A DNA stretch of 64,000 bases, taken from contig NZ_CP015750.1 in assembly GCF_001742185.1 (NCBI RefSeq), forward strand, positions 2,914,001-2,978,000, in the 5' to 3' direction. This DNA comes from Pectobacterium wasabiae CFBP 3304. GTDB taxonomy: Bacteria > Pseudomonadota > Gammaproteobacteria > Enterobacterales > Enterobacteriaceae. A program made the position numbers and the translations under genes. The notes beneath the pieces are model-generated. The model saw nothing but the letters and a program-made list of their open reading frames with translations. It ran no database searches and was not told the DNA's origin. Position 1 is the stretch's first letter. Each line of letters opens with the position of its first letter. Positions 15,310 through 64,000 of this stretch are shown here, in pieces.

Positions 15310-15375
15310 AGCGGGTAGGACTCCTGCAAGCCTGTATTGCTGGTAATATAACATGCTGTTAGTATTTGGCAATCA

Positions 15376-15407: not shown

Positions 15408-15494
15408 TTGTGTACTAAGACATAACGAAAGCATCTATGTTTCAAAAAAAGCCCCAAAAATTTCTAGAAAAACGGACCAAAAACGGGAAGCCTC

Positions 15495-23162: not shown

Positions 23163-23176
23163 TTTAGGTTAATTAT

Positions 23177-23203
23177 GTTGGAGTAAAAAATATTTACTCC
23201 AAC
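23177..23203. repeat. inter-copy hairpin 1
   Basis: GTTGGAGTAAA (23177-23187) and TTTACTCCAAC (23193-23203) form a perfect 11-bp stem 15 bases after copy 1. The same element recurs after copies 2, 3 and 4. The weak T tract makes it a terminator, attenuator or mRNA-stabilising hairpin. Confidence 0.7.
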
Positions 23204-23307
23204 GTGTTAATATACCCCGTAAAAGAATTGGCGGCTATTAGATGAAATCATAAAAATAAACACATTTTTATTATGTGCTAATGGATTAATTAACAGGGAG
23301 ACTTACC

Positions 23308-24243: not shown

Positions 24244-24265
24244 TGGTAATATAGGGTAATTATGC

Positions 24266-24290
24266 TGGAGTAAGCATTCTGTTTACTCCA
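24266..24290. repeat. inter-copy hairpin 2 (shortened)
   Basis: TGGAGTAA (24266-24273) pairs with TTACTCCA (24283-24290). It is a degenerate form of the 11-bp hairpin found after copies 1, 3 and 4. Confidence 0.6.
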
Positions 24291-24454
24291 ATCGGTTAAT
24301 CTATTTATTAAATTAATCATCCTGTTATTAACCGAAGTGCTAACAAATTTGGGGGTATAATTACCTGTTGTGTTGGCACTATTATAATCATTAAGTAACA
24401 GACGGGACTGATTTTTATCGTGCATTAATGATTTAATTAACAGGGAGGCTAGCA

Positions 24455-25387
24455 GTGCGTATTTCTGAAGCGGTTTACAATCCATCACTATTGTTGAGGA
24501 TACTTGCCTTTTCTTTGGTTGTGTTGGTTTTTCCAGCCAAAGCTGATGAGATGAGTAGTGAAAAATATCTGGTTTCCTTTAAAACCTATAAAAGCACCTG
24601 CCTTTTACGGGTTAACGATCTTCCGGCTGGTGACAATACAACTATTCCTTCTAAAACTATGTCGGCGGGATTTAATCTGACGGCATTTTTAGAAAATGGA
24701 AACAATGATATCGAACTGCTGATGGGGCCACAGGATTATGAGGATCCCAAAACGCTGTTTCCTGATTCATCTTGTCAGGTGATAGTCACCAAGGATACGG
24801 AGACAACCAGTACTGAAATTGCCAATTTTAAATTAACTGTAAATGAAAAAGGTGAAATTACGGCGAATGATTCTGCCATGACAGCGAATAGTTCGACAGT
24901 GTTTGAAGGCTATACCAAAAATGAAAAAGACTATGGCTTCTATAAAGTCAGAGGTCGTCTGAAGGCTGCTGGTTTGCCTCGTTGGTCGTGGGTCAATGCC
25001 ACTCCGGTTACAGAAAATGACCTGCAAAAAATTAAAGTAGCCTATACCGATATCTGGGTGATGATGAAAGATCGTGATATTGAAGGCCTGAAAAAAATCA
25101 CACAGATCTCGAATCAGGAGATGGCCTTTGCAGAAGGATCTAATACGGGGATGATGTTTATTTCTACCGATTTTCCGCAGCATGTGATTGACAAACAGCT
25201 TACACCGGTTCCTATTGAATGGGATAAATACAAAATCATTAAATACCGCGATGGGCGACTTTTTCGCCTTGCTATTGGATTCTTCCAGAATTCACCACTG
25301 AAATTCAAAAATGCTAACGGCGATGTTGTTTTTACTTATAACCCTTATTTCTCAATAATAGAGGGTAAGGTGACGCTGGTTAGATAA
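24455..25387 (+). CDS. putative T6SS immunity protein, copy 3
   Basis: This is the 310-residue third paralogue. It has a GTG start after gggagg and a signal peptide with a distinct core (LLRILAFSLVVLVFPAKA). The central block matches the other copies. The C-terminal part (EWDKYKIIKYRDGRLFRLAIGFF) mixes features of copies 1/5 and 4. Divergence in the two ends, with a conserved middle, suggests specificity is carried by the ends. Confidence 0.6.
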   Translation: MRISEAVYNPSLLLRILAFSLVVLVFPAKADEMSSEKYLVSFKTYKSTCLLRVNDLPAGDNTTIPSKTMSAGFNLTAFLENGNNDIELLMGPQDYEDPKTLFPDSSCQVIVTKDTETTSTEIANFKLTVNEKGEITANDSAMTANSSTVFEGYTKNEKDYGFYKVRGRLKAAGLPRWSWVNATPVTENDLQKIKVAYTDIWVMMKDRDIEGLKKITQISNQEMAFAEGSNTGMMFISTDFPQHVIDKQLTPVPIEWDKYKIIKYRDGRLFRLAIGFFQNSPLKFKNANGDVVFTYNPYFSIIEGKVTLVR

Positions 25388-25401
25388 TATAGGTTAGTCA
25401 T

Positions 25402-25427
25402 GTTGGAGTAAAAATATTTACTCCAAC
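25402..25427. repeat. inter-copy hairpin 3
   Basis: GTTGGAGTAAA (25402-25412) and TTTACTCCAAC (25417-25427) form a perfect 11-bp stem with a 4-base loop, 14 bases after copy 3. Confidence 0.7.
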
Positions 25428-25530
25428 GTGTTAATACACCTCATAAAATAATGGGGGCTATTAGACGAAATAATAAAAATAAACACATTTTCATTATGTG
25501 TTAATGGATTGATTAACAAGGAGGATTACC

Positions 25531-26466
25531 GTGATTTTTAGTAGAGCGTCTTATAATTCACCTCTATTCTTATTGAAGATGGCAGCGTTTTTGCTGTTAG
25601 TGTTAGTTTTTCCTGCCAGGGCTGAGGAAGGGATAAAAGAGAAATATATGTTTTCTTTTAAGTCATACAAGAGCTCTTGCCTTTTAAGAGTAAACGATTT
25701 TCCAGCAGTAGATACCGGACGAGCCAGGGAAGGAAACCTGTCCGCAGGGTTCAACCTGACGGCATTTTTAGAAAATGGAAACAATGATATCGAACTGCTG
25801 ATGGGGCCGCAGGATTATGAAGATCCCAAAACGCTGTTTCCTGATTCGTCTTGTCAGGTGATAGTCACAAAAGATACGGAGACAACCAGTACCGAAATCG
25901 CCAACTTTAAATTAAGCGTGAATGAAAAAGGTGAGATTACAGCGAGTGACTCTGCCACGACAGCCAATAGTTCGACTGTGTTTGAAGGTTATACCAAAAA
26001 TGAAAAAGACTATGGCTTTTATAAAGTCAGAGGCAGTCTGAAGGCTGCCGGTTTACCACGCTGGTCGTGGGTCAATGCGACTCCGGTTACAGAAAATGAT
26101 CTGCAAAAGATCAAGGTGGCCTATACCGATATCTGGATGATGATGAAAGATCGTGATATTGAAGGCCTGAAAAAAATCACACAGATCTCGAATCAGGAAA
26201 TGGCCTTCGCGGAAGGATCTAATACGGGGGTGATGTTTATTTCTACCGATTTTCCGCAGCACGTCATCGATAAACAATTCACCCCAATCCCGATTGAGTG
26301 GGACAAGTATAAATTAATACCATATCGTGGTGGACGACTTTTCCGATTAGGTGTGGGGTATTACCAACATTCTCCATTGAGATTTAAAAACCCTGATGGG
26401 AAGTTTGTTTTTGGTTACAATCCTTACTTTTCGATAATAGATGGAAAGGTGACACTGGTTAGATAG
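25531..26466 (+). CDS. putative T6SS immunity protein, copy 4
   Basis: This 311-residue paralogue has a GTG start after aaggagg. The signal peptide is almost that of copy 2, but the mature N-terminus (EEGIKEKY) is shared only with copy 5. The segment TGRAREGNLSAGFN is unique to it. The C-terminus (YKLIPYRGGRLFRLGVGYYQHSP) is partly like copy 2. It sits in the same tandem array and is presumed to be under the same transcription. Confidence 0.6.
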   Translation: MIFSRASYNSPLFLLKMAAFLLLVLVFPARAEEGIKEKYMFSFKSYKSSCLLRVNDFPAVDTGRAREGNLSAGFNLTAFLENGNNDIELLMGPQDYEDPKTLFPDSSCQVIVTKDTETTSTEIANFKLSVNEKGEITASDSATTANSSTVFEGYTKNEKDYGFYKVRGSLKAAGLPRWSWVNATPVTENDLQKIKVAYTDIWMMMKDRDIEGLKKITQISNQEMAFAEGSNTGVMFISTDFPQHVIDKQFTPIPIEWDKYKLIPYRGGRLFRLGVGYYQHSPLRFKNPDGKFVFGYNPYFSIIDGKVTLVR

Positions 26467-26480
26467 TTTAGGTTGATCAT

Positions 26481-26507
26481 GTTGGAGTGAAAAATATTTA
26501 CTCCAAC
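26481..26507. repeat. inter-copy hairpin 4
   Basis: GTTGGAGTgAA at 26481 pairs with TTTACTCCAAC ending at 26507, the same element as after copies 1 and 3 with one change in the left arm. Confidence 0.65.
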
Positions 26508-26611
26508 GTCTTAATATATCTCATGAACGAATGGTAATGCTATTAGATGAAATGGAAATACAAGCTTATTTTTATTATTTATTAATGAATTAATTAACAA
26601 GGAGACTCATC

Positions 26612-27547
26612 GTGAGTGTTAGTAGAGTGTCTTATAACCCAATTTTATTCTTATTGACAATGATGGTTTTTTCGCTGTTAGTGTTAGTTTTTCCGGCCAA
26701 GGCTGAGGAAGGGATAAAAGAGAAATATCTGTTTTCTTTTAAAACCTATAAAAGTACCTGTATTTTACGGGCCAACGATCTGCCTGCGATTGATAATACA
26801 GAAATGGATTCTGGAACCATATCAGCGGGATTTAATTTGACGGCGTTTTTAGAAAATGGAAACAATGATATTGAACTGCTGATGGGGCCACTGGATCATA
26901 AAAATCCCAAAACGCTGTATCCAGACTCATCCTGCCAGGTGATTGTCACCAAGGATACGGAGACAACCAGTACCGAAATCGCCAACTTTAAATTAACTGT
27001 GAATGAAAAAGGTGCAATTACAGCGAGTAACTCTGCCACGACAGCCAATAGTTCGACAGTGTTTGAAGGTTATACCAAAAATGAAAAAGACTATGGCTTC
27101 TATAAAGTCAGAGGTAGTCTGAGGGCCGTTGGCTTACCACGCTGGTCGTGGGTCAATGCCACCCCGGTGACAGAAGATGACCTGCAAAAAATCAAAGTGG
27201 CTTATACCGATATCTGGATGATGATGAAAGATCGTGATATTGAAGGTCTGAAAAAAATCACACAGATCTCGAATCAGGAAATGGCCTTTGCGGAAGGATC
27301 TAATACGGGGATGATGTTTATTTCTACCGATTTTCCGCAGCACGTCATCGATAAAAAACTTACTCCTCTTCCAATTGATTGGAGTAAATATAAAATAATT
27401 AAGTATCGTGATGGGCGGTTATTTCGTTTAGGTGTGGGTTTTTTCCAAAACTCGCCATTAAGATTTATAAATGAGGAAGGGAGGATTGTTTTTGCTTACA
27501 GGCCTTATTTCTCAATAATAGAGGGTAAGGTGACGCTGGTGAGATAA
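26612..27547 (+). CDS. putative T6SS immunity protein, copy 5
   Basis: This is the last 311-residue paralogue. It has a GTG start after aaggag and a signal ending VFPAKA. The mature start EEGIKEKY is as in copy 4. The block IDNTEMDSGTISAGFN and the C-terminal 60 residues match copy 1 almost exactly. The array's two ends therefore share sequence that the middle copies lack. It is followed by a short repeat remnant and the PAAR gene rather than the hairpin found after copies 1-4. Confidence 0.6.
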   Translation: MSVSRVSYNPILFLLTMMVFSLLVLVFPAKAEEGIKEKYLFSFKTYKSTCILRANDLPAIDNTEMDSGTISAGFNLTAFLENGNNDIELLMGPLDHKNPKTLYPDSSCQVIVTKDTETTSTEIANFKLTVNEKGAITASNSATTANSSTVFEGYTKNEKDYGFYKVRGSLRAVGLPRWSWVNATPVTEDDLQKIKVAYTDIWMMMKDRDIEGLKKITQISNQEMAFAEGSNTGMMFISTDFPQHVIDKKLTPLPIDWSKYKIIKYRDGRLFRLGVGFFQNSPLRFINEEGRIVFAYRPYFSIIEGKVTLVR

Positions 27548-53000: not shown

Positions 53001-53076
53001 GCCGATATAGCTCAGTTGGTAGAGCAGCGCATTCGTAATGCGAAGGTCGTAGGTTCGACTCCTATTATCGGCACCA
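53001..53076 (+). tRNA. thrW: tRNA-Thr (CGT anticodon)
   Basis: The 76-base cloverleaf runs from GCCGATATAGCTCAG to TATCGGCACCA with encoded CCA. The acceptor stem pairs GCCGATA with TATCGGC. The anticodon CGT is at 53034-53036 in loop TTCGTAA, and the T loop is GGTTCGACTCC. It lies downstream of proA as in E. coli, where thrW is the attachment site of the CP4-6 prophage. Confidence 0.97.
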
Positions 53077-53158
53077 TCTTTCTTCATAAAATCATTAAAT
53101 TACAGTTTCATTGTTTTGCTTTGTTCAACACTAATGTGCGTTTATGAGCGTTGTAAGT

Positions 53159-53334: not shown

Positions 53335-53560
53335 TAAACGCTCTTTAGCGTATTGTGGATTTACCATGTTTTTGGTCAAATCTAGTTGGGCGTTGCGCCG
53401 AACTCTAATTTATTGATTACATTTACAGTTGCGGAACAAACTTTTTGAGCCGCAATCCAGTAGGTTGCGGATCAAAAAGTTTGTTCCGCGGCTACAAGTA
53501 AAGAGCCTAGACCAAGGGATGGACAGGGAGGTAAGAACTCCTCGTTCATTCTTTGGTACT
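53335..53560 (+). ncRNA. retron msr-msd non-coding RNA
   Basis: The 230 bases before the reverse transcriptase contain several short hairpins (CGCT-cttt-AGCG; GGCG-ttg-CGCC) as expected for msr. They are followed by one very long hairpin at 53431-53489, in which an 18-bp perfect stem (GCGGAACAAACTTTTTGA with its complement) and, after a mismatch, a 6-bp stem close a nine-base loop. A long single hairpin of this kind is typical of msd, which the RT copies into DNA. The 5' and 3' limits and the priming G were not determined. Confidence 0.75.
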
Positions 53561-53592
53561 AGTTAATGACTGGTAAACGGAACAAGCTGGTA

Positions 53593-54555
53593 ATGAGCAT
53601 CGATATCGAAACGACACTTAAAAAAGCTTACCCTGATTTTGAAATACTTTTAAAATCAAGACCAGCTACGCATTACAAAGTATACAAAATCCCCAAGCGC
53701 ACGATCGGTTATCGTATCATAGCTCAGCCTACGCCACGAGTAAAAGCAATACAAAGTGATATAATAAAAATACTGAAAGAATATGTATATATTCACGATG
53801 CAGCTACAGCCTATGTTGATGGGAGGAATATATTAGATAACGCCAAAATACATCAGAATTCAGTTTTTTTATTGAAATTAGATTTAGTTAATTTCTTCAA
53901 TAGAATTACACCTGAAATTTTATTCAAGGCATTATCTAGACAGGGTTTACATATTTCAGATGACAATAAAAACATATTAAGACAATTTTGTTTTTGGAAT
54001 CGGTCAAAGAGAAAAAATGGTGCCTTGGTTTTAAGTGTAGGAGCACCTAGCTCACCTTTTATTTCGAATGTTGTTATGAAAAGCTTCGATGAAGAGTTAA
54101 CTTCTTTTTGTGAATCAAATAAAATTAACTACTCAAGATATGCAGATGACTTAACTTTCTCGACAAATGAGAGGGATGTGTTAGGGTTGGCTCATCAAAA
54201 GGTAAAAACAACACTGAGTCATTTTTTTGGCACCAGAATTATTATTAATAACAACAAAATTGTATATTCATCCAAAGCACATAATCGTCACGTTACAGGA
54301 GTGACTTTAACCAATGATAATAAGCTATCAATAGGAAGGGAAAGGAAAAGATATATATCTTCTTTAGTGTTTAAATTTAAAGAAGGCAAGCTTTCGGGTG
54401 ATGATATCAACCATCTTAAAGGCTTGATTGGTTTTTCTTTTAATATTGAGCCATTGTTCATTGGAAGACTTGAAAAAAAATATGGAAAATCAACCATTAA
54501 GTCTATCAAAAAATATTCAGAAGGAGGGGTAAATGGAACAGATCTTACCGAGTAG
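53593..54555 (+). CDS. retron reverse transcriptase
   Basis: The 320-residue RT has the polymerase motif YSRYADDLTFS, the retron-specific NAxxH-type motif DNAKIHQ and the VTG motif HNRHVTGVTL in the thumb region. LSVGAPSSPFISN is also retron-like. It makes msDNA from the upstream ncRNA. The start at 53593 (MSIDIETTLKKAYPDF) is preferred over an in-frame ATG at 53566, which lacks an RBS; neither has a strong one. Its stop overlaps the ATPase gene by 23 bases. Gene content matches the Ec78/Eco7-type retron with PtuA-PtuB effectors. Confidence 0.92.
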   Translation: MSIDIETTLKKAYPDFEILLKSRPATHYKVYKIPKRTIGYRIIAQPTPRVKAIQSDIIKILKEYVYIHDAATAYVDGRNILDNAKIHQNSVFLLKLDLVNFFNRITPEILFKALSRQGLHISDDNKNILRQFCFWNRSKRKNGALVLSVGAPSSPFISNVVMKSFDEELTSFCESNKINYSRYADDLTFSTNERDVLGLAHQKVKTTLSHFFGTRIIINNNKIVYSSKAHNRHVTGVTLTNDNKLSIGRERKRYISSLVFKFKEGKLSGDDINHLKGLIGFSFNIEPLFIGRLEKKYGKSTIKSIKKYSEGGVNGTDLTE

Positions 54556-56158
54556 GATAATCAAATTAATAAAAAAATCGGAAAGCGGCGATTTTGCTTC
54601 CTCTTACCAACTTTTTAAAATATTTGGCTCAGATGAGTACGGAGTTGATCCAGATGAAAAAATGTCTAGCCATTATAAAGAATTATCAGCCAAGCAACTC
54701 GAAGGTGGTCAACTAAGGGTTGCGGATATCCATTTGGAAAACTATAAAGGATTTGAGTCCCTGATTATGGATTTTTCCATGAAAAAAGGCTCTACAATTT
54801 TAGTAGGAAATAATGGTTGTGGAAAGTCGACGATTCTCGATGCAATCCAAAAGGGACTGACACATCTCTCCTCAAGGCTATCTACTCGCTCACATAATGG
54901 CGATGGTATCGAAAAGCATGAGCTAAAAACAGGTAAAAATTATGCATCGATAGCTATCAATTACGACTTTATGGGAGTTCGTTTTCCTATGATCATAGCT
55001 ATGACTGAACCTGGTTATGAGGATAGTGCTAAAAGCAACTATAGCGGAATTAATGAGTTAGGGAATATTTTCAAAACAGCCCATTCAATCAATCCAAATG
55101 CATCTTTTCCTTTAATTGCAATGTATACAGTTGAAAGAGCGAATGACGTTTCTACTAAAGATATTGAGAATTCTGACGAAATCAAAGAAGCTCAAATCTG
55201 GGACAAATTCAAAGCATATAATAAAAGTCTTACAGGAAAAGCTGATTTTAAACTATTTTTTAGATGGTTTAAAGAATTAATAGAAATTGAAAACTCTGAT
55301 AATGCTGAAATTAAAGCATTAAGAGCAGAGATTCGAGCTAAAGAAAAAGACTTAGATAATCCATTACTAAAGGCTCTCCTGGCAGAGAATAAGAATTCTG
55401 ATACTACTAAAAAATTGTTAGAAGATCATGAAAATTCCCTGAAATTTTTAAGAAGTAAATTAAATAACTATTATTCAATTAATAGTAAAACATTACACAC
55501 TGTTGAAGATGCAATTTATTCTTTTCTGCCCGGATTCAATAATCTTAAACTTCAAAGGGCACCTCTTGATCTCATAGTGGATAAAGATAATGTGTCTTTA
55601 AGCGTTCTGCAATTATCACAGGGTGAGAAAACCATTTTAGCATTAATTGCCGATATTGCTCGTAGATTGACATTATTAAACCCTAACAATGAAAAGCCTT
55701 TGGAAGGCACCGGAATTATCTTGGTTGATGAAATAGACCTGCATCTGCATCCGTCATGGCAGCAAAATATTATTCCACGGCTTGAAAAAACTTTTAAGAA
55801 TATTCAGTTTATAGTTACAACTCATAGCCCACAAGTTTGTCATACTATTGATAGTCAAAATATATGGTTATTAAAGAATGGCCAAAAGTTTAAGGCTCCT
55901 AAAGGAGTTAGGGGGGCAATATCTTCTTGGGTATTAGAAAATTTGTTTGAAGTTGCTCAACGACCGCCAGAAGATAAGTATACAAAGCTTTTGCAGGAAT
56001 ATAAGAGTTTAGTGTTTTCAGAAAAATATTCTAGTGAAGAAGCAAAAAAGCTAGGCACTACTTTATCCCGACATTTCGGTCCGGATGATGAAACCTTAGT
56101 AGAGTTAAAGCTTGAAATTGAAAAAAGAGATTGGGAGGATGATTTTGAAAAGGATTAA
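54533..56158 (+). CDS. ptuA: PtuA-like SMC/RecF-type ATPase, retron effector subunit
   Basis: The 541-residue AAA/ABC-type ATPase has Walker A VGNNGCGKST, a coiled-coil region around residues 255-330, signature LSLSQGEK-like LQLSQGEKTILAL, Walker B GIILVDEIDLHLHPSW and H-loop VTTHSPQV. Residues 17-55 look like a Sel1-type helical repeat seen in such retron ATPases. With the HNH protein it forms the Septu-like effector held inactive by msDNA. AGGAGG precedes the ATG; it overlaps the genes on both sides, so the three are coupled. Confidence 0.9.
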   Translation: MEQILPSRIIKLIKKSESGDFASSYQLFKIFGSDEYGVDPDEKMSSHYKELSAKQLEGGQLRVADIHLENYKGFESLIMDFSMKKGSTILVGNNGCGKSTILDAIQKGLTHLSSRLSTRSHNGDGIEKHELKTGKNYASIAINYDFMGVRFPMIIAMTEPGYEDSAKSNYSGINELGNIFKTAHSINPNASFPLIAMYTVERANDVSTKDIENSDEIKEAQIWDKFKAYNKSLTGKADFKLFFRWFKELIEIENSDNAEIKALRAEIRAKEKDLDNPLLKALLAENKNSDTTKKLLEDHENSLKFLRSKLNNYYSINSKTLHTVEDAIYSFLPGFNNLKLQRAPLDLIVDKDNVSLSVLQLSQGEKTILALIADIARRLTLLNPNNEKPLEGTGIILVDEIDLHLHPSWQQNIIPRLEKTFKNIQFIVTTHSPQVCHTIDSQNIWLLKNGQKFKAPKGVRGAISSWVLENLFEVAQRPPEDKYTKLLQEYKSLVFSEKYSSEEAKKLGTTLSRHFGPDDETLVELKLEIEKRDWEDDFEKD

Positions 56159-56921
56159 TAAAACAGGAGAAGACCAATTCTTTATTGATTTTAAAACGCA
56201 GAATCCAAATGGAACTTGGGACGAATTTAGAAATCATGAAAAAAGCGTTTTGTATAAGAGGCTCAAACAACACATTTGCAATGACCAGATGTACCTTTGT
56301 GCATATTGTGAGATAGATTTAGATCGTAAAAATGAACATCAAATAAAAATAGAGCATTTCAAATCTAAATCTGGCTCGCTCCCCGGTGGAAGTAACTGGC
56401 ATTTAGAATGGTCTAATCTCTTAGGTGTATGTCTTGGTGGTACAAATACAGGTGATAATTATGAATTACCAGCTAACTTAAGTTGCGATTCATATAAGTC
56501 ACACTATGAAGATAAAAATAAAATTACTGACAAAGACTGGACAGGTAAAATTCTCCTTCCTCTCACGCTTCCGAATGCGCACAATTTATTTAACTTTGAC
56601 AAGGTCACAGGTAAGTTGCTACCTAATGAATCGTACTGTAATAGCATAAGTATAGATGGTAAACCTGCGGTAGAAACACTAGGTATTGTTACAAAAACAA
56701 TAGAAGTTTTAAATTTAAATTGTAGCAGGCTAAATAACGCCAGAATGAAGTTGCTGTTTCACTTCAACAGTTGCGCACGAGAAAGAGATTTGAGGAAAAT
56801 TCATAATTTATTGATGCAATGGAGTCAAGGTGAACCAAAATTTTTTCAGACGACACGAGATATAATAATTCGAGAAAGTAGAATTTGCCGAGGATTGCTG
56901 GATGGAACAATAAAGTATTAG
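56145..56921 (+). CDS. ptuB: PtuB-like HNH nuclease, retron effector subunit
   Basis: The protein of about 258 residues has a zinc/HNH core: LCAYCEIDLDR, catalytic IKIEHFKSKSG and WSNLLGVCLGG. It is the nuclease half of the PtuAB effector. The related Eco7 system is reported to cut host tRNA-Tyr when phage removes msDNA. The start is unusual: GGGAGG at 56133-56138 touches the in-frame ATG at 56139, while the TTG at 56145 has normal six-base spacing, so TTG is preferred. The frame also opens at 56112. It overlaps ptuA by 14 bases. Confidence 0.88.
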   Translation: MKRINKTGEDQFFIDFKTQNPNGTWDEFRNHEKSVLYKRLKQHICNDQMYLCAYCEIDLDRKNEHQIKIEHFKSKSGSLPGGSNWHLEWSNLLGVCLGGTNTGDNYELPANLSCDSYKSHYEDKNKITDKDWTGKILLPLTLPNAHNLFNFDKVTGKLLPNESYCNSISIDGKPAVETLGIVTKTIEVLNLNCSRLNNARMKLLFHFNSCARERDLRKIHNLLMQWSQGEPKFFQTTRDIIIRESRICRGLLDGTIKY

Positions 56922-56995: not shown

Positions 56996-57277
56996 TCATG
57001 GATTTTTTTTTCGTAAATGCATAGTTTGAAAATCACTCCAATTCTTATGATGCTCTTGTAGATTCAGCCAAAAATAAGCATCGGTGTTTAATATATTCGA
57101 AAGAGCTAAACTTTCGGATTCTTTTATTATAGATTTATTTTTTAATATATCCATTGTTCTATTATAAGAAATGCCCATTCTGTTGGCTAACTCATATACC
57201 GACATTTTCAATGGTTTCAAAAACTCCTCCGACAGCATCTCTCCCACTGTAGTCGGCTCAGCACCTTCTGTCCTCAT
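56996..57277 (-). CDS. HigA-like XRE antitoxin, apparently orphan
   Basis: The 93-residue protein matches HigA-family antitoxins: PTTVGEMLSEEFLKPL, VYELANRMGISYNRTMDIL and DAYFWLNLQ. HigA is usually preceded by its toxin HigB, but no HigB-like frame exists on this strand within 300 bases upstream. The start at 57277 follows AAGGA by eight bases; an ATG at 57295 is also in frame. It lies between the retron and the plasmid-like region, transcribed toward the retron. It could be a regulator or stability remnant. Confidence 0.75.
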   Translation of the reverse strand: MRTEGAEPTTVGEMLSEEFLKPLKMSVYELANRMGISYNRTMDILKNKSIIKESESLALSNILNTDAYFWLNLQEHHKNWSDFQTMHLRKKNP

Positions 57278-57616
57278 ATCTAATTCCTTTGTCATCTATC
57301 CAGAAACAACTTTATCATCAGTAAAGGCTTTATTCAAATAACTGTCTGAATAGTATTTACTGGATGATTCGATTTAGAGTTTTCTTTTGGTATGGAAACT
57401 CTACGCCATCTAGAGTATTGCCAGACCTGGCTAGCTGGACTCGAGTGCCCTTACCTAAAGCAAATCGTCAGTTGTTGCTATATCCATGCGATCTGCGTAA
57501 CTAAGAGTATTCATTCTTCAATCACATTTTCAGTTGTGGTTATTATTCGCTTTTCATCTAAAAATTATCGCATTTTGCTGCTTATATAGGGTGGGGATAT
57601 ATCAGAAAATTAATTT

Positions 57617-57628
57617 GTTTAGCTAAAC
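57617..57628. promoter_or_regulatory. KorA operator 1 (IncP type)
   Basis: GTTTAGCTAAAC is the exact 12-bp KorA operator of RK2/RP4 and is embedded in a 22-base perfect palindrome (57612-57633). No korA gene is visible in the window, so the repressor would have to come from elsewhere. Confidence 0.75.
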
Positions 57629-57783
57629 AAATTTTTTATTTAGGGCCTAAAAGTAGTAAAATTTCGATATATCCATTGCTAATAGCGGCACATGTATTGC
57701 TATTTGAATTTAGCTGGGTTTATAAAATACTCACTCTTATTTTAGTTGCTTACATTTTGTTTCATTTTATTTATTGCTATTTT

Positions 57784-57795
57784 GTTTAGCTAAAC
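57784..57795. promoter_or_regulatory. KorA operator 2 (IncP type)
   Basis: This is a second exact GTTTAGCTAAAC, within a 16-base perfect palindrome (57782-57797), 167 bases from the first and about 90 bases before the iterons. Two exact copies close together argue against chance. Confidence 0.75.
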
Positions 57796-57819
57796 AACTT
57801 CTATTTCAAGTGTATATCT

Positions 57820-58015
57820 TGTGGATTTATCCACAAATTCTGTTAATAAGAATGTGAGTAACTTGTGATCTATTTACTGCGTTTATGACATATGAGGTGC
57901 GCTTTCATGACATATGAGGGGCACTTTCATGACATATGAGGTACGCTGTTTTTTTTAAACTCATTATATAACAATGAATTAACTATTATTTTTTTGTTCT
58001 CTAACCAGATCTTTA
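57820..58015. other. IncP-like iteron replication origin (oriV)
   Basis: Three identical 13-mers ATGACATATGAGG start at 57885, 57907 and 57929, an exact 22-base period. They continue as TGC, GGC and TAC. RK2 iterons are of the form TGACA-NT-TGAGGGGC at 22-23 base spacing. Upstream, 57827-57835 is a perfect DnaA box (TTATCCACA) within an inverted repeat. Downstream, 57948-58015 is almost pure AT. DnaA box, iterons, AT tract is the RK2 oriV order. No replication initiator gene is present; the rest of 57296-58254 has no supported gene. Confidence 0.75.
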
Positions 58016-58207
58016 ACCATATATAACCATAAAAACAAAAAGAATTATTAAAATCTTATTGGCGCTCAAAAAACGACCAAAAAACAAATAAATTTCAGTG
58101 AGATTTATTTCTAAGGATTTGATGTATGTTGACAGATGTATTTCAGGTGTTAATTTTGCGGTATTCTCAATTCATAACGTTTGTTTGCAAATTTTAGCAT
58201 CTAAGAT

Positions 58208-58220
58208 TTTAGCCGCTAAA
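58208..58220. promoter_or_regulatory. KorB operator 1 (IncP type)
   Basis: TTTAGCCGCTAAA is an exact match to the 13-bp KorB operator (TTTAGC-S-GCTAAA). It lies 35 bases before the HTH gene at 58255, so KorB would be placed to control that gene's promoter. A degraded half-copy (TTTAGCATCTAAG) lies just upstream. Confidence 0.78.
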
Positions 58221-58254
58221 ATATCATAATATCTGCTGAGAGAAGAGTTCTTCG

Positions 58255-58533
58255 ATGAAATCAGTTATGCCCGAACTTATAACCGTTGAAGAGTTGGCTT
58301 TTGCGTTAAAGAAAACTGTAAAAAGTATCCGCAGTGATGCAACGCGAAATCCTAAATGTCTTCCACCCAGATGTCGTCTTCCTGGGAATAAACGCCTTTT
58401 ATGGCGTAGAGAAGATGTTAAAGACTGGATAGATAACTCCGTTGAGTTAAGGGGAGAAAATTGCGATATAGCGAAAGACGTAAATAGTCTTCAAAAAAAA
58501 CGAGGCAGGCCACCAAAGAAGAAACCTAAGTAA
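58255..58533 (+). CDS. HTH protein, AlpA/excisionase-like, with AT-hook tail
   Basis: The 92-residue basic protein has a MerR/AlpA-like winged helix (LITVEELAFALKKTVKSI through RLLWRREDVKDWID) and ends in an AT-hook-like KKRGRPPKKKPK. It could be an excisionase/recombination directionality factor or a regulator. The KorB operator just upstream puts it under plasmid-type control. A second ATG five codons in is an alternative start; gagagaagag precedes the first. Confidence 0.75.
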   Translation: MKSVMPELITVEELAFALKKTVKSIRSDATRNPKCLPPRCRLPGNKRLLWRREDVKDWIDNSVELRGENCDIAKDVNSLQKKRGRPPKKKPK

Positions 58534-58576
58534 TAATAATTTTCTCGTGGTGATATTTAAACAAGTTTCCTTTCAG

Positions 58577-58675
58577 AAAACACATGCTCTGCACATAAAT
58601 ACTCGAGTAAGTCTGTATAAATACATTAAGAAAACACATCGTGTACACAGGAATACACATTTCGTGCACAGATAT
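58577..58675. repeat. three direct repeats beside oriT
   Basis: Three related 24-mers of pattern AANACACATNNNNTGNACA start at 58577, 58631 and 58652. They lie on the side of nic opposite traJ, where RP4 has its TraK-binding region. They may bind an accessory relaxosome protein; no such gene is seen here. Confidence 0.5.
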
Positions 58676-58690
58676 ACAACGGCAACTGTA

Positions 58691-58800
58691 GGGCAGGACA
58701 TGTGAAGTAGGCCCACCGCTTACGCGATGGACCTCTTCACTTCCCTTATTCGCAGCCGGGGGCTGCTCAACGGGATTCCTGCTCTGCGAGGTTGATCGGC
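58691..58800 (-). other. RP4/IncP-like origin of transfer (oriT)
   Basis: On the minus strand this reads CCTCGCAGAGCAGG, TCCCGTTGAGCA, TGCGAATAAGGGA, AGTGAAGA, GTGGGCCTACTTCAC and GTCCTGCCC, in the order and nearly the spacing of RP4 oriT. The nic region is TCCTGCCC at 58691-58698. The TraJ-type inverted repeat pairs GTGAAG (58702-58707) with CTTCAC (58735-58740). As in RP4, traJ starts just beyond the far side. Nicking would need a MOBP relaxase, which is not encoded in the window. Confidence 0.88.
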
Positions 58801-58822
58801 TGCCGCCTTCTGGAGAGTTCGG

Positions 58823-59176
58823 ATGACTGATATCCCAAACAGAAAAAACTCAACACCAATCAAAGTGTATTGCCTTCCCGAAGAGAAGGCGCAAATCCAG
58901 GCTAATGCAGAAGCATCAGGGTTAAGTACTGCTAGTTTTATTCGAAATATTGCAATGGGTTATCAGGTTGAATCCATAGTGGATATAAAGCAGGTTTTGG
59001 AGCTTAGTCGAGTAAATGGAGATCTTGGCCGACTTGGCGGATTGCTAAAATTGTGGCTGGCAAATGATCCGAGGACCGCAAATTTTTCACCATCATTGAT
59101 AAAAACATTGTTGAGAAAAATAGAATCAACTCAGCAAGAGCTGAGGAATATTATGGAGAAAATACTGGATAGATAA
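58823..59176 (+). CDS. traJ: TraJ-like oriT-recognition relaxosome protein
   Basis: The 117-residue protein is very like RP4 TraJ: TPIKVYCLPEEKAQIQ, and then NGDLGRLGGLLKLWLANDPRT. It has a ribbon-helix-helix-type N-terminal half. TraJ binds the inverted repeat next to nic and recruits the TraI relaxase. In RP4 traJ is followed by overlapping traI; here a trbJ-like gene follows instead, so the relaxase is missing. The ATG follows ctggagag. Confidence 0.92.
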   Translation: MTDIPNRKNSTPIKVYCLPEEKAQIQANAEASGLSTASFIRNIAMGYQVESIVDIKQVLELSRVNGDLGRLGGLLKLWLANDPRTANFSPSLIKTLLRKIESTQQELRNIMEKILDR

Positions 59177-59234
59177 ATTATGAGATCAACATTACTCAGA
59201 GCGCTAACTAAAAAGTTAATTTTGAGGTGACGAA

Positions 59235-60029
59235 ATGAAGAAATCACTGCGGGCTGTCAAACTACTAAGAACAATTTTAGCCGCTAAAAAGGCGTTGCTG
59301 GCTTCCCTCGTAGCGTCAATCATGACTTTACCGGCGCTAGCCGGTATTCCCGTCATTGATGGTACTAACGTGGTCCAAACCACCATCAGCGCGGTCAACA
59401 ACGTTCAGGCCGTTGCCAAACAAATTCAGCAGTACCAGACGCAGCTGCAGCAATATGAAAATATGCTGCAGAACACCGTAGCGCCTGCGGCCTATATCTG
59501 GGACCAGGCGAACTCCACAATTAATAGGATCCTGCAGGCGCAGGACACGCTGAACTACTACAAGAATCAGGCTGGTAGTCTGGATTCTTATCTTAAGCGC
59601 TATCAGGACATCAGTTATTACCGTTCTTCTCCCTGCTTTAACAGTAATATTGAATGCACTGCTGACGAGATCAATGCAATACGCAGTGCTCAACAGGACA
59701 GCTCAGAAGCACGTAAGAAGGCGAATGATGCTGTCTTTAAAGTCATTGACCAGCAGCAAGATACTTTACAAGCTGATGCAGATAACCTCGCAGATCTCCA
59801 GACTCAGGCAAGCGGCGCAACGGGCCAAATGAAGGCTATTCAGGCAGCAAATCAACTTGCCAGTGCTCAGGCTAACCAGCTTCTGCAGATTCGTTCAATT
59901 TTGGTGGCTCAGCAAAATGCAGCGGCTACAGTAGCTCAGGTACAAGCAGACAGAGAAGCGCAGCAAACAGTAGCTGATGAAAAAACTTTATCTGGTGTAA
60001 ATACGCCTAGCCCTAAAAGAATCTGGTGA
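59235..60029 (+). CDS. trbJ: P-type T4SS protein TrbJ (VirB5-like)
   Basis: The 264-residue exported protein has a long basic signal region (cleavage near LPALAG). It is followed by IPVIDGTNVVQTTISAVNNVQAVAKQ-type sequence and a Gln/Ala-rich helical body, as in TrbJ. TrbJ/VirB5 proteins sit at the pilus tip or are periplasmic adhesin-like T4SS components. GAGGTGA precedes the ATG. A KorB operator lies inside its first 20 codons. The C-terminus NTPSPKRIW recurs in the next gene. The other trb genes (B-I) are absent. Confidence 0.88.
   Translation: MKKSLRAVKLLRTILAAKKALLASLVASIMTLPALAGIPVIDGTNVVQTTISAVNNVQAVAKQIQQYQTQLQQYENMLQNTVAPAAYIWDQANSTINRILQAQDTLNYYKNQAGSLDSYLKRYQDISYYRSSPCFNSNIECTADEINAIRSAQQDSSEARKKANDAVFKVIDQQQDTLQADADNLADLQTQASGATGQMKAIQAANQLASAQANQLLQIRSILVAQQNAAATVAQVQADREAQQTVADEKTLSGVNTPSPKRIW
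59276..59288. promoter_or_regulatory. KorB operator 2, inside trbJ coding sequence
   Basis: This is a second exact TTTAGCCGCTAAA, at codons 14-18 of trbJ (residues IlaAAK region). The coding location does not prevent KorB binding; RK2 also has intragenic KorB operators. Confidence 0.7.
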
Positions 60030-60040
60030 AGGAAGGTTTT

Positions 60041-60211
60041 ATGCTAAATAAAATTGCGATCTATTTTATTGTGGTCAGTACATTAATTTTATGTTCTTGT
60101 GAGCAAAATGATAATAATTGTTCATCACTAGACAATAAGGGTGGTAGTTATAAATATGATAATTGTGCTTTACATAATAACAATACTCCAAGCCCAAAAA
60201 AAGAGTGGTAA
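60041..60211 (+). CDS. trbK: small lipoprotein, TrbK-like entry exclusion candidate
   Basis: This is a 56-residue protein with signal peptide and lipobox (LILCSC), and a short Asn-rich mature part ending NTPSPKKEW. In IncP plasmids the small lipoprotein TrbK lies between trbJ and trbL and blocks entry of related plasmids; position and type match although sequence is short. ATG 60041 follows gaagg. It is very AT-rich. The assignment is positional. Confidence 0.7.
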   Translation: MLNKIAIYFIVVSTLILCSCEQNDNNCSSLDNKGGSYKYDNCALHNNNTPSPKKEW

Positions 60212-60213
60212 AT

Positions 60214-61560
60214 ATGAAATCAATCAATAAATTATCGTTTTTATTCGTGATGCTTATTTTTTCTATGAATGCTAATGCAAATCAGTTAAATAGCAGCGGA
60301 TTACTTGATAACTTGTTGGATAAATATCAGCAGGTTGCTAGTACTTGGACTACGGTACTTAGTGATTATGCCAATTGGTTATTTTGGGGACTAGTCCTAA
60401 TAAGCATGGCATGGACTTTTGGCATGATCGCTATGAAAGGGGGAGGGGTTCAGGATTTACTCGCAGAAGTCGTAAGGTTCTTCGCTATCAATGGTTTCTT
60501 TTATTTTATTTTAAAAAATGGTCCGGCCATATCAAAATCCATAATTGATTCATTGAGGGAACTTGCTGGTAATGCTTTAGGTACAGGGAATGGAATCTCT
60601 CCATCAAGTATAGTAGACATGGCTTTCGTTATATTAACAAAGGTTAGTTCGGCTGCTTCTATCTGGTCTCCTATGATTTCCACTATTATGATCACTGTTG
60701 CAATAATAGTTTTAGTGGTAATGTCCCTTATAGCAGTCAATATGCTGATAATGTTAGTGTCTGCATGGGTGATGTGTTACGCAGGAATAATATTGCTGGG
60801 GTTCGGTGGTTCAAAATGGACTTCTGATATAACTATAAATTATCTGCGAACGGTACTGTCCGTTGGAATTCAATTATTTACAATGACATTAATTATTGGA
60901 ATTGGGCAATCATTTATAGATCAGTACTTTTATGTTATTAAAGACGATGTGCCGGATCTTAATAGCCTTATAGTTCTGCTCTTGGCATCAATTATTCTCT
61001 TAGTGTTAACTAACAAATTGCCACAGTTACTATCAGGTATAGTCGGTGGCGCATCCTTACAAGGAATGGGCGGTTTCGGAGCTGGGATGATTGCTGGAGC
61101 TGCCACCACTGCAATCAGCAGCGCTGGAGCAATGGCAATGAGCGCTACAACTCAAGTCAGTGGTGGGGCTTCTGCATTAAAAGCAGCATTTGAATCTGCA
61201 CAAGCTGCCATGGCCGATGAATCTAATTCTGGCGGTAGTTCTGGTGGTGGTGAAGATACCGGTTCTGTAGATGCCTCAGGAGGACAGCCATTAGGATCAG
61301 ATGGTTCCGGCGGGGGAAGCAAGGGTTTTGCGGCCTCGTTCTCTCATGCTGGCCGTATGGCTAGTTACATGGGAAGCAGGCTGGCTAAAGGGGCTATGGA
61401 TTATCAGACTATGAAGCGAAGTGCTAATTCTACCCGGGTACAACAGACCGTTGGCGGGGAGCTGGCGAACCAGATCCGTAAACAAACAGCTGCTCGTCGT
61501 GAAAGCAGCGAACATGATGAATTTGACGGTGATAGTTTAACTGGCAGTAAAAAATCTTGA
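60214..61560 (+). CDS. trbL: P-type T4SS inner-membrane protein TrbL (VirB6-like)
   Basis: The 448-residue protein has a signal-like N-terminus and six or more hydrophobic segments between residues 45 and 280. A Gly/Ala/Ser-rich stretch (MGGFGAGMIAGAATTAI) and a polar low-complexity C-terminal tail follow. This is the TrbL/VirB6 layout, somewhat shorter than RP4 TrbL. It forms part of the T4SS inner-membrane channel and contacts entry exclusion proteins in related systems. The start ATG lies two bases after the previous stop. No further trb genes follow. Confidence 0.88.
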   Translation: MKSINKLSFLFVMLIFSMNANANQLNSSGLLDNLLDKYQQVASTWTTVLSDYANWLFWGLVLISMAWTFGMIAMKGGGVQDLLAEVVRFFAINGFFYFILKNGPAISKSIIDSLRELAGNALGTGNGISPSSIVDMAFVILTKVSSAASIWSPMISTIMITVAIIVLVVMSLIAVNMLIMLVSAWVMCYAGIILLGFGGSKWTSDITINYLRTVLSVGIQLFTMTLIIGIGQSFIDQYFYVIKDDVPDLNSLIVLLLASIILLVLTNKLPQLLSGIVGGASLQGMGGFGAGMIAGAATTAISSAGAMAMSATTQVSGGASALKAAFESAQAAMADESNSGGSSGGGEDTGSVDASGGQPLGSDGSGGGSKGFAASFSHAGRMASYMGSRLAKGAMDYQTMKRSANSTRVQQTVGGELANQIRKQTAARRESSEHDEFDGDSLTGSKKS

Positions 61561-61567
61561 ATTAGGT

Positions 61568-61599
61568 GCGTCAGTTAGCGCGGTAACGTTAACTGACGC
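61568..61599. terminator. inverted repeat after trbL
   Basis: GCGTCAGTTA (61568-61577) and TAACTGACGC (61590-61599) form a perfect 10-bp stem with a 12-base loop. There is no T tract; it may attenuate rather than end transcription, since a gene with a strong RBS follows. Confidence 0.5.
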
Positions 61600-61629
61600 T
61601 TCCACTGAACACCTGTAAGGAGGTGAATA

Positions 61630-61842
61630 ATGGTCGATTATAGTAGCTTTGTTTTGGAAGGAATAAAAATTATTTTTGCCGATAATAAAAAGGGGTTTTT
61701 TAATGACATTTATGATCCGTTGATAAATATCCTATGTATAGAAAACTATTACTATGCTACTGGTATTTATAAATCTGACGACGCCAATGAACAAATGGAA
61801 TTGCTAAAAAAAGCAATAATTGACTATAGAATGGCTCACTAA
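61630..61842 (+). CDS. hypothetical 70-residue protein
   Basis: I do not recognise it. The protein is acidic and aromatic-rich (IENYYYATGIY), without membrane segment or signal. A near-perfect Shine-Dalgarno AAGGAGGTGA ends five bases before the ATG, and a strong terminator follows, which supports a real gene. It is the last rightward gene of the plasmid-like block. Confidence 0.65.
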   Translation: MVDYSSFVLEGIKIIFADNKKGFFNDIYDPLINILCIENYYYATGIYKSDDANEQMELLKKAIIDYRMAH

Positions 61843-61847
61843 AGCGG

Positions 61848-61872
61848 AAAGGCTAACTAAATGTTAGCCTTT
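61848..61872. terminator. bidirectional terminator
   Basis: AAAGGCTAAC-taaat-GTTAGCCTTT is a perfect 10-bp stem flanked by A and T runs. It separates the rightward plasmid-like block from the leftward genes and overlaps the last codons of the small gene at 61857. Confidence 0.85.
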
Positions 61873-62090
61873 TTATTTTGTTTTTCCGATTGTTCAATGT
61901 GATGCTTTAATACTTCTCTCTTTGCCTCTTCATAGGTTAGCTCTCCATTGATTACTTTATTTTTTATTTCATTATAAAATGGTGAGCTTTTGGGGTCCTT
62001 ACCGGATAAAAAAAGACTGGCTTCAGCTTTCCGAAAAGCTTCTTTCCTTGCCTCTGTAGAATATGAATTAGAAGAGTTATTTTTGCTCAT
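61857..62090 (-). CDS. small protein with VbhA-antitoxin-like region
   Basis: This is a 77-residue, highly charged protein. The stretch EARKEAFRKAEASLFLSGKDP followed by NGELTYEEAKREVLKHH resembles VbhA-type antitoxins of Fic toxins. No Fic-domain protein is visible in the window, so it is orphan or has another role. Its start overlaps the end of the membrane protein gene by 14 bases, suggesting an operon. Assignment is by eye and weak. Confidence 0.55.
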   Translation of the reverse strand: MSKNNSSNSYSTEARKEAFRKAEASLFLSGKDPKSSPFYNEIKNKVINGELTYEEAKREVLKHHIEQSEKQNKKANI

Positions 62091-62967
62091 AAATGGAAGT
62101 CCCCTTGTTGTTTATATTCGAGCTGTTTTTATCTACAAGAGTTAGTCTTAACTCCGAGAATTTTTTGCCTGAAACTTTATAACACTGACTTTCATTTTTT
62201 TGAATATAAAGAACTTGGTTTTCTGAGTTACCACATGTCGTAGATATTCTTGTATCGAGAAATAAGAACTTTTCTTGGAATCTTTCAATATATTTCATTG
62301 CTGTTATGCTAATAATAAAAAGAGCAACTGACACAGCAAAAAGGGATAAGCCTGAGATTAATCGATTAAAATTAAATTTCTTTCTAAAAAATAACGAACT
62401 GGCTAGATTGACAATGTTATAGGGGACCATAATGATGAGTCCTATTACTATTGTTTTTTCAGCTAGATTATTCATCTGTATATAAAGTTGAGCCAAGGTT
62501 CCAATATATACTGAAAGTATAGATGATATTACTATCTTTGCTGGGGATACATCTCGCAAGAATATGTATATATAGACTACAATTGCACAAATCATTGCTC
62601 CTATTGGAAATGAGAGCATAAAAGCATAAGCTAATGTCGAGTAATTAAGGTTTTCTGGGTCTATTCCATAAGCAATGTTAAGCTTAAAATTCGCGATCCA
62701 TAAGCATACTGAATATGTAAATCCAGTCACCCCCCATTTAACCACTGTATTATTGAAGACTTTATTTAATAAATCACGATATCCTATGTATACACTGGTT
62801 AATAAAGCTATTGATGATAGAAAAACAGGGGCTGCAATGTATATGTTTTCTAGCCATAATGGGTTTTCTACAATCAAGTATCCAAAAGGTATTAAGTATA
62901 TTATAGCCAAAGTTTGAGGATTATTTAATTTAAGCAAGACATCGGCTAACTTATCTTTATAATTCAT
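62077..62967 (-). CDS. multi-pass membrane protein of unknown function
   Basis: The 296-residue protein has about seven or eight hydrophobic segments between residues 17 and 230, then a soluble C-terminal tail with two Cys (TTCGNSENQ; NESQCYK) that may lie in the periplasm. I do not recognise the family. It is AT-rich, starts ten bases after the integrase stop and overlaps the small charged protein. It could be an exclusion, abortive-infection or accessory island protein. Confidence 0.65.
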   Translation of the reverse strand: MNYKDKLADVLLKLNNPQTLAIIYLIPFGYLIVENPLWLENIYIAAPVFLSSIALLTSVYIGYRDLLNKVFNNTVVKWGVTGFTYSVCLWIANFKLNIAYGIDPENLNYSTLAYAFMLSFPIGAMICAIVVYIYIFLRDVSPAKIVISSILSVYIGTLAQLYIQMNNLAEKTIVIGLIIMVPYNIVNLASSLFFRKKFNFNRLISGLSLFAVSVALFIISITAMKYIERFQEKFLFLDTRISTTCGNSENQVLYIQKNESQCYKVSGKKFSELRLTLVDKNSSNINNKGTSIYEQK

Positions 62968-62976
62968 ACAACATCC

Positions 62977-64000
62977 TTATTTCAATTTTAACGCCAAATT
63001 TTCAGCTTTGGGGTGATAGTATCGCATTAGCATTCTTGGATCTTTATGTCCTGTAATTTTGGTTAGCTCATGCATAGGGAAAATTTCAGCAAGTCGAGAA
63101 GTTGCTTCATGTCGAAGGTCATGAAACCTTAAATTTTTAAGGAAAGATTCATTGCATAATGAGTTTGCTTTCTCGTACCTTTCTCTGGCACGTTTTACAG
63201 CTCGGTCAAAAGCTCTGGTAATCGCGTCTGCACGCATATTGAAAACCTTATCAGCAGTTTGCTCAGAATGTTCCTTAAGACTGGACAGTATCGTAATAGC
63301 TTTGGTTGATAAAGGGACATCGCGGGCATTGCCATTCTTAGTATCTGGCAGATGTGCAACTCGCCTATCAAGATCGATAAAGCGCCATCGGAGTTCTGCA
63401 ATTTCGCTACGGCGCATGGCTGTTTCTAACGCCAGAAGAACGATTGCTGGCAATACTGATGAATGTGTTGCCGCAATGATATGGTCTATCTCCGTGGTTA
63501 TTTCTTTCTTTGGCGTCACAACGGTTTTATCTGGTGACACCGGCAGCGTTTCCAGGCGTCTGGTTCTTGCATTCTTCGGCTGGGGTTTACGGATGACTTC
63601 TACAGGGTTCAGCAGGCTCTCCATGCCCCATTCTTTACGCGAAACATTGAAAACATGAGACAGTAACGCCAACCGCCTTAAAACGGTTGCAGGAGCATAG
63701 ATTTTCAACCATTCATCCCTCAGCTTGGCGACATCAGCACTCCTGATGCTGGCCATATAGTTTTTCGCCAACTGAGTGCCTTTTAGTATCCGCACCAAAG
63801 ATCGGTCTTGCACTGCCCCTTTTTTGTCGGGAACAATCTCTTTTTCATAGCGCGTTAGGGCTTCATACAATGTTGTAGATTCCGCTTCGCTGCGGCTAAG
63901 CCAAACACCTCTCGCCATTTCTGACTCGATCATTTTGGCCCAAGCTTCTGCTTCCACTTTGGTGTTAAAGGTTTTGGTTTGAGAGGGAAAACCACGTTTG
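62977..64000 (-). CDS. tyrosine-type site-specific integrase (5' end outside window)
   Basis: The frame is open to the window edge: upstream of the first Met the reading KRGFPSQTKTFNTKVEAEAW continues, which is the usual integrase N-terminus. The gene is therefore partial here. Catalytic residues are visible: Arg in ALETAMRRSEIAELRW, the His-x-x-Arg in FHDLRHEATSRL, a later His in ITGHKDPRM and the Tyr nucleophile in LMRYYHP. It catalyses integration and excision. It lies 11 kb from thrW, not beside it. Confidence 0.92.
   Translation of the reverse strand, partial: KRGFPSQTKTFNTKVEAEAWAKMIESEMARGVWLSRSEAESTTLYEALTRYEKEIVPDKKGAVQDRSLVRILKGTQLAKNYMASIRSADVAKLRDEWLKIYAPATVLRRLALLSHVFNVSRKEWGMESLLNPVEVIRKPQPKNARTRRLETLPVSPDKTVVTPKKEITTEIDHIIAATHSSVLPAIVLLALETAMRRSEIAELRWRFIDLDRRVAHLPDTKNGNARDVPLSTKAITILSSLKEHSEQTADKVFNMRADAITRAFDRAVKRARERYEKANSLCNESFLKNLRFHDLRHEATSRLAEIFPMHELTKITGHKDPRMLMRYYHPKAENLALKLK

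Follow-up and report, generated by a model that had tools for sequence, protein, structure and literature searches.

Integrated islands that live at the expense of a conjugative plasmid have been described for more than one plasmid group. SGI1, whose helpers are the IncC plasmids, is reported to carry parS mimics that bind the IncC ParB protein and stabilize the island at the helper's cost (PMC10954446), and relaxase-less elements with TrbJ, TrbK and TrbL, typified by GIsul2, have already been proposed as riders of IncP plasmids (PMC5704250). A thrW island of Salmonella Typhimurium, StmGI_0323, has been published as an island of plasmid origin, with the genomic-islands section of that paper naming no origin of transfer (oriT), origin of vegetative replication (oriV), Kor operators or helper (PMC5575072). 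Thus, the general idea of an IncP parasite and the gene set discussed below have, in these sources, already been published. Here we describe an 11.1-kb island in the chromosome of Pectobacterium wasabiae CFBP 3304, detected in a stretch of 64,000 nucleotides (the window; contig NZ_CP015750.1, positions 2,914,001 to 2,978,000). This island is probably a satellite that is replicated, partitioned and transferred by a resident IncP-1 plasmid, having no relaxase, initiator or other conjugation gene of its own beyond traJ, trbJ, a trbK-like gene and trbL.

Helper-type parts and missing machinery

The 4-kb segment on which the initial annotation had centered its proposal (57612..61560) is the core of a complete island that spans 53028-64189; the core thus stands, while the element is larger than had been proposed. 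Between the two copies of the attachment (att) repeat are found, in order, msr, a reverse transcriptase, PtuA, PtuB, HigA, a control and origin region, an AlpA-like gene, oriT-traJ, trbJ, the TrbK-like gene and trbL, with three small or membrane proteins and then the integrase lying 3' of trbL up to attR (Table 1). Integrase, att repeats and a helper-type oriT, by which relaxase-less integrative mobilizable elements (IMEs) are recognized, are all present in it.

The origin region contains parts of all three kinds known from an RK2-type oriV, namely a DnaA box, iterons and AT-rich 13-mers, albeit with three iterons and fewer of the 13-mers, and aligns with the oriV of two IncP-type plasmids across the iterons and the CTCTAACCAGATCTTTAACC stretch. 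In dinucleotide shuffles of the window (n=100) KorA and KorB operators did not appear and iterons averaged 0.01. None of the two exact KorA operators, two exact KorB operators, iterons and DnaA box listed in the initial annotation, all of which were recovered at or near the same positions, is to be expected by chance. No such KorA, KorB or iteron sites were detected in about 114 kb of island flanks. Silencing by KorA and KorB is one possible role of these sites, with partition through KorB being another, by analogy with the IncC ParB and SGI1. A perfect inverted repeat of 7 bp (57819-57836) was also noted, one arm of which is overlapped by the DnaA box.

The oriT, previously labeled RP4-like, was independently recognized by the Rfam traJ-II model, and the assignments of TraJ, TrbJ and TrbL were confirmed by scores above the NCBIfam cut-offs. 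The 56-residue protein between the last two matches no Pfam or NCBIfam model; nevertheless, its lipobox-like motif, its location in the trbK position and its resemblance to two plasmid proteins encoded in the same position (26-28% identity) bear out its earlier description as a TrbK-like lipoprotein.

No relaxase was detected among the island open reading frames (ORFs), and none of the scanned island proteins matched a replication (rep) family. Genome-wide searches for TrfA, the middle domain of IncP TraI and KorB_C gave no match, with the control plasmid pDS1 being positive for each; this agrees with the absence of relaxase, trfA and korB noted earlier, korA and the other trb genes not having been searched for genome-wide. 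Only one TrbL is encoded in the genome. The 6 kb read beyond position 64000 contains no tra/trb, trfA or kor genes, the presence of which was to be expected, in the initial annotation, of a simple integrated plasmid. TrfA, sought as a marker for a helper, gave 0 of 25 in the genus, again with a positive pDS1 control.

Table 1. Features of the island and its insertion site (positions in the window; counts of loci refer to the 14 loci compared in the next section)
Feature	Position	Strand	Evidence and remarks
tRNA-Thr (CGT)	53001..53076	+	Insertion target, with a proA-like gene upstream; ARAGORN, Rfam
attL	53028..53078		51-bp repeat of tRNA-Thr 3' end; attR, the other copy, lies outside window at 64139-64189 of own genome
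Retron msr RNA (cargo)	53340..53421	+	Rfam RF00170, 62.5 bits
Retron reverse transcriptase (cargo)	53566..54555	+	NCBIfam St85 295 bits; PADLOC RT_I-A 420 bits
PtuA ATPase (cargo)	54533..56158	+	NF041760 518 bits; PADLOC 801 bits
PtuB-like HNH protein (cargo)	56151..56921	+	Listed open frame begins at 56112
HigA-family protein	56996..57295	-	TIGR02607 66 bits
KorA operator 1	57617..57628		Exact; GTTTAGCTAAAC
KorA operator 2	57784..57795		Exact; GTTTAGCTAAAC; invariant in 10 non-redundant islands
DnaA box	57827..57835	+	TTATCCACA; exact match in eight of the 14 loci
Three RK2-type iterons	57886..57944	+	TGACATATGAGGNNC; 22-bp period; starts 57886, 57908, 57930
Stretch common to AT-rich part of IncP oriV	57999..58018	+	CTCTAACCAGATCTTTAACC; alignment with two IncP-type plasmid oriVs
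KorB operator, degenerate, first of tandem pair	58193..58205		Exact in several relatives
KorB operator	58208..58220		Exact; TTTAGCCGCTAAA; overlaps promoter-like hexamers of AlpA-like gene
AlpA-like winged-helix protein (92 aa)	58255..58533	+	AT-hook-like C-terminus; candidate excisionase or regulator
oriT	58691..58793	+	Rfam traJ-II 85.5 bits; nic region 58691-58703, followed by TraJ inverted repeat; exchanged cassette about 58691-58890
TraJ	58823..59176	+	NCBIfam NF010451 163 bits, cut-off passed
TrbJ (VirB5)	59235..60029	+	NF010452 377 bits, cut-off passed
KorB operator inside trbJ	59276..59288		Exact; TTTAGCCGCTAAA; also within trbJ of plasmid pGABEEC10_3
TrbK-like lipoprotein (56 aa)	60041..60211	+	Between trbJ and trbL; lipobox-like LILCSC (by eye)
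TrbL (VirB6)	60214..61560	+	TIGR02783 267 bits, cut-off passed; start in ORF list is GTG at 60205
Conserved island protein (70 aa)	61630..61842	+	No Pfam family
77-aa protein	61857..62090	-	Weak VbhA similarity, below cut-off
Predicted membrane protein (296 aa)	62077..62967	-	Weak family match only
Tyrosine integrase	62977..64000	-	PF00589 88 bits; gene runs on to 64080 in own genome

Cassette exchange and conservation in the island family

Of 5426 complete E. coli genomes, 129 gave a match with the core (57300-61700) as the query, always on the chromosome and with at least 80% of the query covered in 95 of them, so that islands of the same kind, for which the initial annotation had suggested a search, do occur elsewhere; among 72,556 plasmid records only parts of the core were matched. 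For comparison we assembled 14 loci from three genera, namely the window, two loci of other species and 11 of the 129 E. coli loci, the last being picked for spread and odd coverage, with the result that damaged copies are over-represented. An exact KorA operator is present in 13 of the 14 (the exception carries IS1 at this place), and in all of them one or more exact KorB operators precede the AlpA-like gene and three iterons (four in one locus) are seen under a relaxed pattern. The KorA operator is invariant across its 12 columns in 10 non-redundant rows (L010, L055, L060 and L062 being omitted from the column statistics), as against an average of 0.80 for background columns, though the statistic is modest, given that 3 of 482 segments of the same size perform equally well in the case of KorA, and 16 of 481 in that of KorB. 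The genes are under purifying selection, with low ratios of non-synonymous to synonymous substitution (dN/dS), as calculated without the same four loci; L059 and L061 were also left out in the case of trbL and trbK, as was L059 in that of the AlpA-like gene. The trbK pair of the window and its sister island L003 shows a ratio of 1.1 at low divergence. A contig scan with the AlpA-like alignment found only two loci, owing to its use of two short patterns. The AlpA-like profile matched five of 394 Enterobacterales genomes, two of them marginally, with a third (54% identical) lying on a 6-kb contig that yielded neither TraJ nor any Trb gene; the TrbL profile matched 35 of the 394, many through distant VirB6-like proteins.

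The strongest of all lines of evidence comes from oriT and TraJ. In RP4, TraJ is reported to bind the inverted repeat adjoining nic (PMC7314908). Comparing 13 islands (L010 is not in this set) with four IncP-type plasmids other than RK2 and R751, we noted by eye that the repeat arm and the N-terminus of TraJ fall into two classes, which are always concordant. Class 1 comprises the window, the L004 group and the plasmids pDS1 and p14EC001a, and class 2 the L003 group with pGABEEC10_3 and p5_3214. Within class 1 the repeat and loop of the window resemble those of pDS1, and those of the L004 group resemble p14EC001a, with the TraJ N-terminus of the L004 group being equally close to both plasmids. 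Across 58685-61560, the window and L003 share 96.8% DNA identity outside positions 58691-58890 and 61.1% inside them, whereas the window and pDS1 share 93.5% in 58691-58890 and 65.8% in the rest of 58685-59176. A cassette of about 200 bp has therefore, judging from these alignments, been exchanged with a pDS1-like plasmid, in one direction or the other. Upstream of 58690 the window and L003 are only 66-86% identical; hence, the left edge of the exchange is visible only against pDS1, and the right edge in both comparisons.

A comparable replacement is seen in the E. coli island L056, which is 97.9% identical to L004 over 8100-12050 except in its oriV (67.7%). The L056 oriV is up to 99.4% identical to those of conjugative IncP-type plasmids, and recurs at 90-100% identity in five E. 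coli chromosomal places, three of them inside the island matches listed; of seven such plasmids, five have an IncP-type traJ as well. Likewise, the L056 trbJ shares 93.6% DNA identity with that of p14EC001a; trbJ has thus been exchanged too. The helper-facing sites of these islands thus recombine with plasmids, as read from the alignments, and the case for dependence on a helper is strengthened by the resemblance of the oriT/TraJ cassette, and of the L056 oriV, to particular IncP-type plasmids.

It should be noted that some of the observations weigh against a satellite. The core match covers less than 80% of the query in 34 of the 129 E. coli genomes, and five of the 11 fetched E. coli cores are damaged, either through an insertion sequence (IS) element or a transposon or in the form of an internal stop. 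These are features to be expected of an integrated IncP-1 plasmid in decay, the sites and genes of which would be mere leftovers, and such an origin would also account for the IncP homologues of most core parts and for the KorB operator in trbJ, which also occurs in a plasmid trbJ. However, the conservation of sites and genes in 14 loci, all with the same reduced core, is poorly explained by decay, and the damage in the five E. coli cores looks like recent damage to an intact type; in L004 and L005 the IS elements lie outside the core genes. Furthermore, the island has a dedicated integrase, and att repeats were detected in seven of the 14 loci; each of the remaining loci is cut or rearranged, or shows no second copy within the stretch fetched. 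In the TrbL tree, eight islands and two GIsul2-like loci (L045 and L046) form a single clade (support 100/100) on a branch of 0.55, apart from five plasmids. The islands do not separate from the GIsul2-like loci in this tree, and the program flagged a single long branch within the IncP-island rows; the TrbJ tree gives the same grouping with less support (80/99). On the grounds of conservation, the TrbL tree and the boundaries we rejected the decayed plasmid, which we regard as highly improbable. Random decay in close relatives, which the initial annotation had associated with such a plasmid, is thus contradicted by the conserved sites and genes, the short and damaged copies notwithstanding, and the satellite proposed there, which survives both this comparison and the reading beyond 64000, is supported by the plasmid matches of oriT/TraJ cassettes and oriV.

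The origin is reduced, with only three iterons and fewer of the 13-mers, which tells against helper-driven replication. This would suit a mobilizable island that uses only the IncP-type oriT, TraJ, TrbJ, TrbK and TrbL, with the iterons and Kor sites serving to disturb the helper through iteron or centromere incompatibility, or to silence the island. The parS mimics of SGI1 are indeed reported to destabilize the IncC helper (PMC10954446), and KorB operators do lie on promoter-like hexamers; however, promoter-like sites were rarer in our scan than in shuffles, which leaves the reading of KorB on a promoter weak. Against this stands the capture of a plasmid oriV by L056 and its recurrence in further chromosomal places, suggesting, though not decisively, that origin function and not incompatibility alone has been selected. 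We view this possibility as doubtful, if the most serious of the competitors.

Cargo and proposed mode of life

The cargo of the window island is predicted to be an Ec78/PtuAB-type retron, likely functioning in anti-phage defense, which the island would carry from one bacterium to another; its PtuB-like protein matches TIGR02646 above cut-off (75 bits) and PADLOC (325 bits), and NF041761 below cut-off (143 bits, cut-off 150). Across the relatives the core is constant and the cargo varies, including retron, Hachiman, Lamassu and IetAS systems by profile and CBASS and ABC-three-component genes by annotation. This variety raises the question of whether these are defense islands that have lost mobility, with the conjugation module acting in the host, for instance by TrbK excluding IncP plasmids. 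In RP4, TrbK in the recipient is reported to be sufficient by itself for exclusion (PMC8923210). However, a conserved oriT of the helper's class has no role in exclusion, and a copy in Pectobacterium versatile (L010) with 99.6% identity over 11.1 kb, together with cargo differing at a single site, fits continuing mobility. We therefore consider an immobile defense island unlikely.

Returning to the satellite, its parts and boundaries, the machinery it lacks, its conservation and the plasmid matches of the oriT/TraJ cassette (and of a relative's oriV) are features of the sequence from which the following cycle may be proposed. The integrase would free a circle, a step in which the AlpA-like protein would likely serve as excisionase, and helper TraI, guided by the island TraJ, would then nick the island oriT. 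DNA would pass through the helper Trb channel, in which TrbJ and TrbL of the island would replace those of the helper; these proteins and TrbK together would alter entry exclusion, in the way that SGI1 alters that of IncC. The circle could be kept for a time, or compete with the helper, through the action of helper TrfA at the three iterons and of KorB/IncC at the KorB sites, and KorA and KorB might hold down the AlpA-like gene once the helper is established.

Our confidence declines from the nicking by TraI to the Kor repression. The best supported step is the predicted mobilization by helper TraI and the Trb channel via the island oriT and TraJ. Replication driven by TrfA is plausible, though from a reduced origin, and repression of the AlpA-like gene by Kor proteins would fit the layout, though it would not in itself explain the quiescence of the island in helper-free cells. 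The replacement of TrbJ and TrbL would follow published proposals for SGI1 and GIsul2 (PMC5704250), and partition through KorB sites would parallel the parS mimics described for SGI1 (PMC10954446). In seven islands, protein identity to the best of four plasmids is 83-93% for TrbJ, 54-59% for TrbL and 26-42% for TrbK. Two of the compared plasmids differ from each other to a similar extent (TrbL 54%, TrbK 40%); thus, island divergence alone is no proof of a role in exclusion. The 92-residue AlpA-like protein has excisionases and BldC at the top of its similarity list, with weak scores, and ends in an AT-hook-like motif, KKRGRPPK. Among its relatives, an AT-hook match below cut-off was seen in one, and HTH_17 matches in several, above cut-off in one. 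Lying beside the AT-rich origin, it may act there rather than in excision.

In the fullest form of this proposal, the islands would be complete plasmid satellites that use the helper's origin, partition protein, repressors, relaxase and channel, track shifts among their helpers by capturing oriT/TraJ cassettes and origins of IncP-1 plasmids, deploy private TrbK and TrbL against exclusion and pay the host in interchangeable anti-phage systems; for this we see the balance as even. If true, a parasite dependent on the IncP-1 origin, Kor proteins and channel would shape the copy number, stability and exclusion of IncP-1 plasmids, and would explain the movement of some defense islands at an E. coli tRNA site. 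The cassette exchanges document helper use at the level of sequence, and the system is amenable to testing with standard RP4-type laboratory plasmids.

Beyond 64000, the remainder of the integrase gene and attR are followed by two other integrases and a replicase (read to about 70000). This stretch, corresponding to L002 positions 11874-16476, with its two integrase genes and replicase-family gene (PF03090), represents tandem elements at the tRNA-Thr site. Elsewhere in the window, 22000-27000 has a GC content of 37-40%, as against mostly 50-55% in the background, and is perhaps another island, and 30897-31003 matches the Rfam family Ysr224 (Yersinia small RNA 224; 71.8 bits).

Relation to described elements

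StmGI_0323 is the closest to the window island in its gene set: HigA, a 97-residue protein, TraJ, TrbJ, a 57-residue protein, TrbL, a 70-residue protein, a hypothetical protein, a membrane protein, a recombinase and tRNA-Thr are listed for it (PMC5575072). The likeness is one of gene order and sizes in the published table, the island being known here by description alone, and even its cargo layout is resembled by the E. coli locus L059. A survey of E. coli defense hotspots uses VirB5/VirB6 as a mark of relaxase-less IMEs with defense cargo, as in the window; the passages of it considered here name neither IncP control sites nor thrW (PMC10121019). In the titles and abstract openings of the papers listed in our searches, subscription papers being outside this scope, no KorA/KorB operators, IncP oriV or cassette exchange are described for such islands. 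What is new here is the helper-type origin without an initiator, the Kor sites and the cassette exchange.

SGI1 resembles the window island in its logic, being described as an integrated element that employs the transfer apparatus of its helper, replaces subunits of the helper type IV secretion system and carries parS mimics. It differs in its helper and proteins, in having its own RepA and in being switched on by the helper activator AcaCD (PMC10954446, PMC7826253), whereas the IncP regulators implied by the window sites are repressors; the insertion sites also differ, that of the SGI1 family being trmE as opposed to tRNA-Thr.

GIsul2 shares with the window island TrbJ, TrbK, TrbL, an AlpA-type protein, an integrase, the lack of a relaxase and a proposed IncP helper (PMC5704250, PMC9376610). 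However, it is reported to be inserted at the 3' end of guaA and to have its own rep genes (repA/C), whereas the window island lies at tRNA-Thr and has no rep gene, but possesses an IncP oriV and KorA sites. The GIsul2-like locus L045 has RepA_C and KorB sites and no iterons; in this island, which is from the same genus, VbhA-like and HigA-like stretches also appear to be fused in one ORF of 144 residues (4857-5291). The IncP island of Burkholderia and Brucella likewise shares TraJ, TrbJ, TrbL and a proposed IncP helper, and is distinguished by its own MobP relaxase (PMC5704250). L048 and L050 are of this kind, with a relaxase and RepC or RepA_C. Five IncP-island-like loci from other Enterobacterales (L048 to L052) display KorB operators and between one and three RK2-type iterons, the latter mostly located close to traJ, and no exact KorA operator was detected in them. 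Of the window type, GIsul2 and the IncP islands, the first is the most reduced, having kept the helper sites while possessing no initiator.

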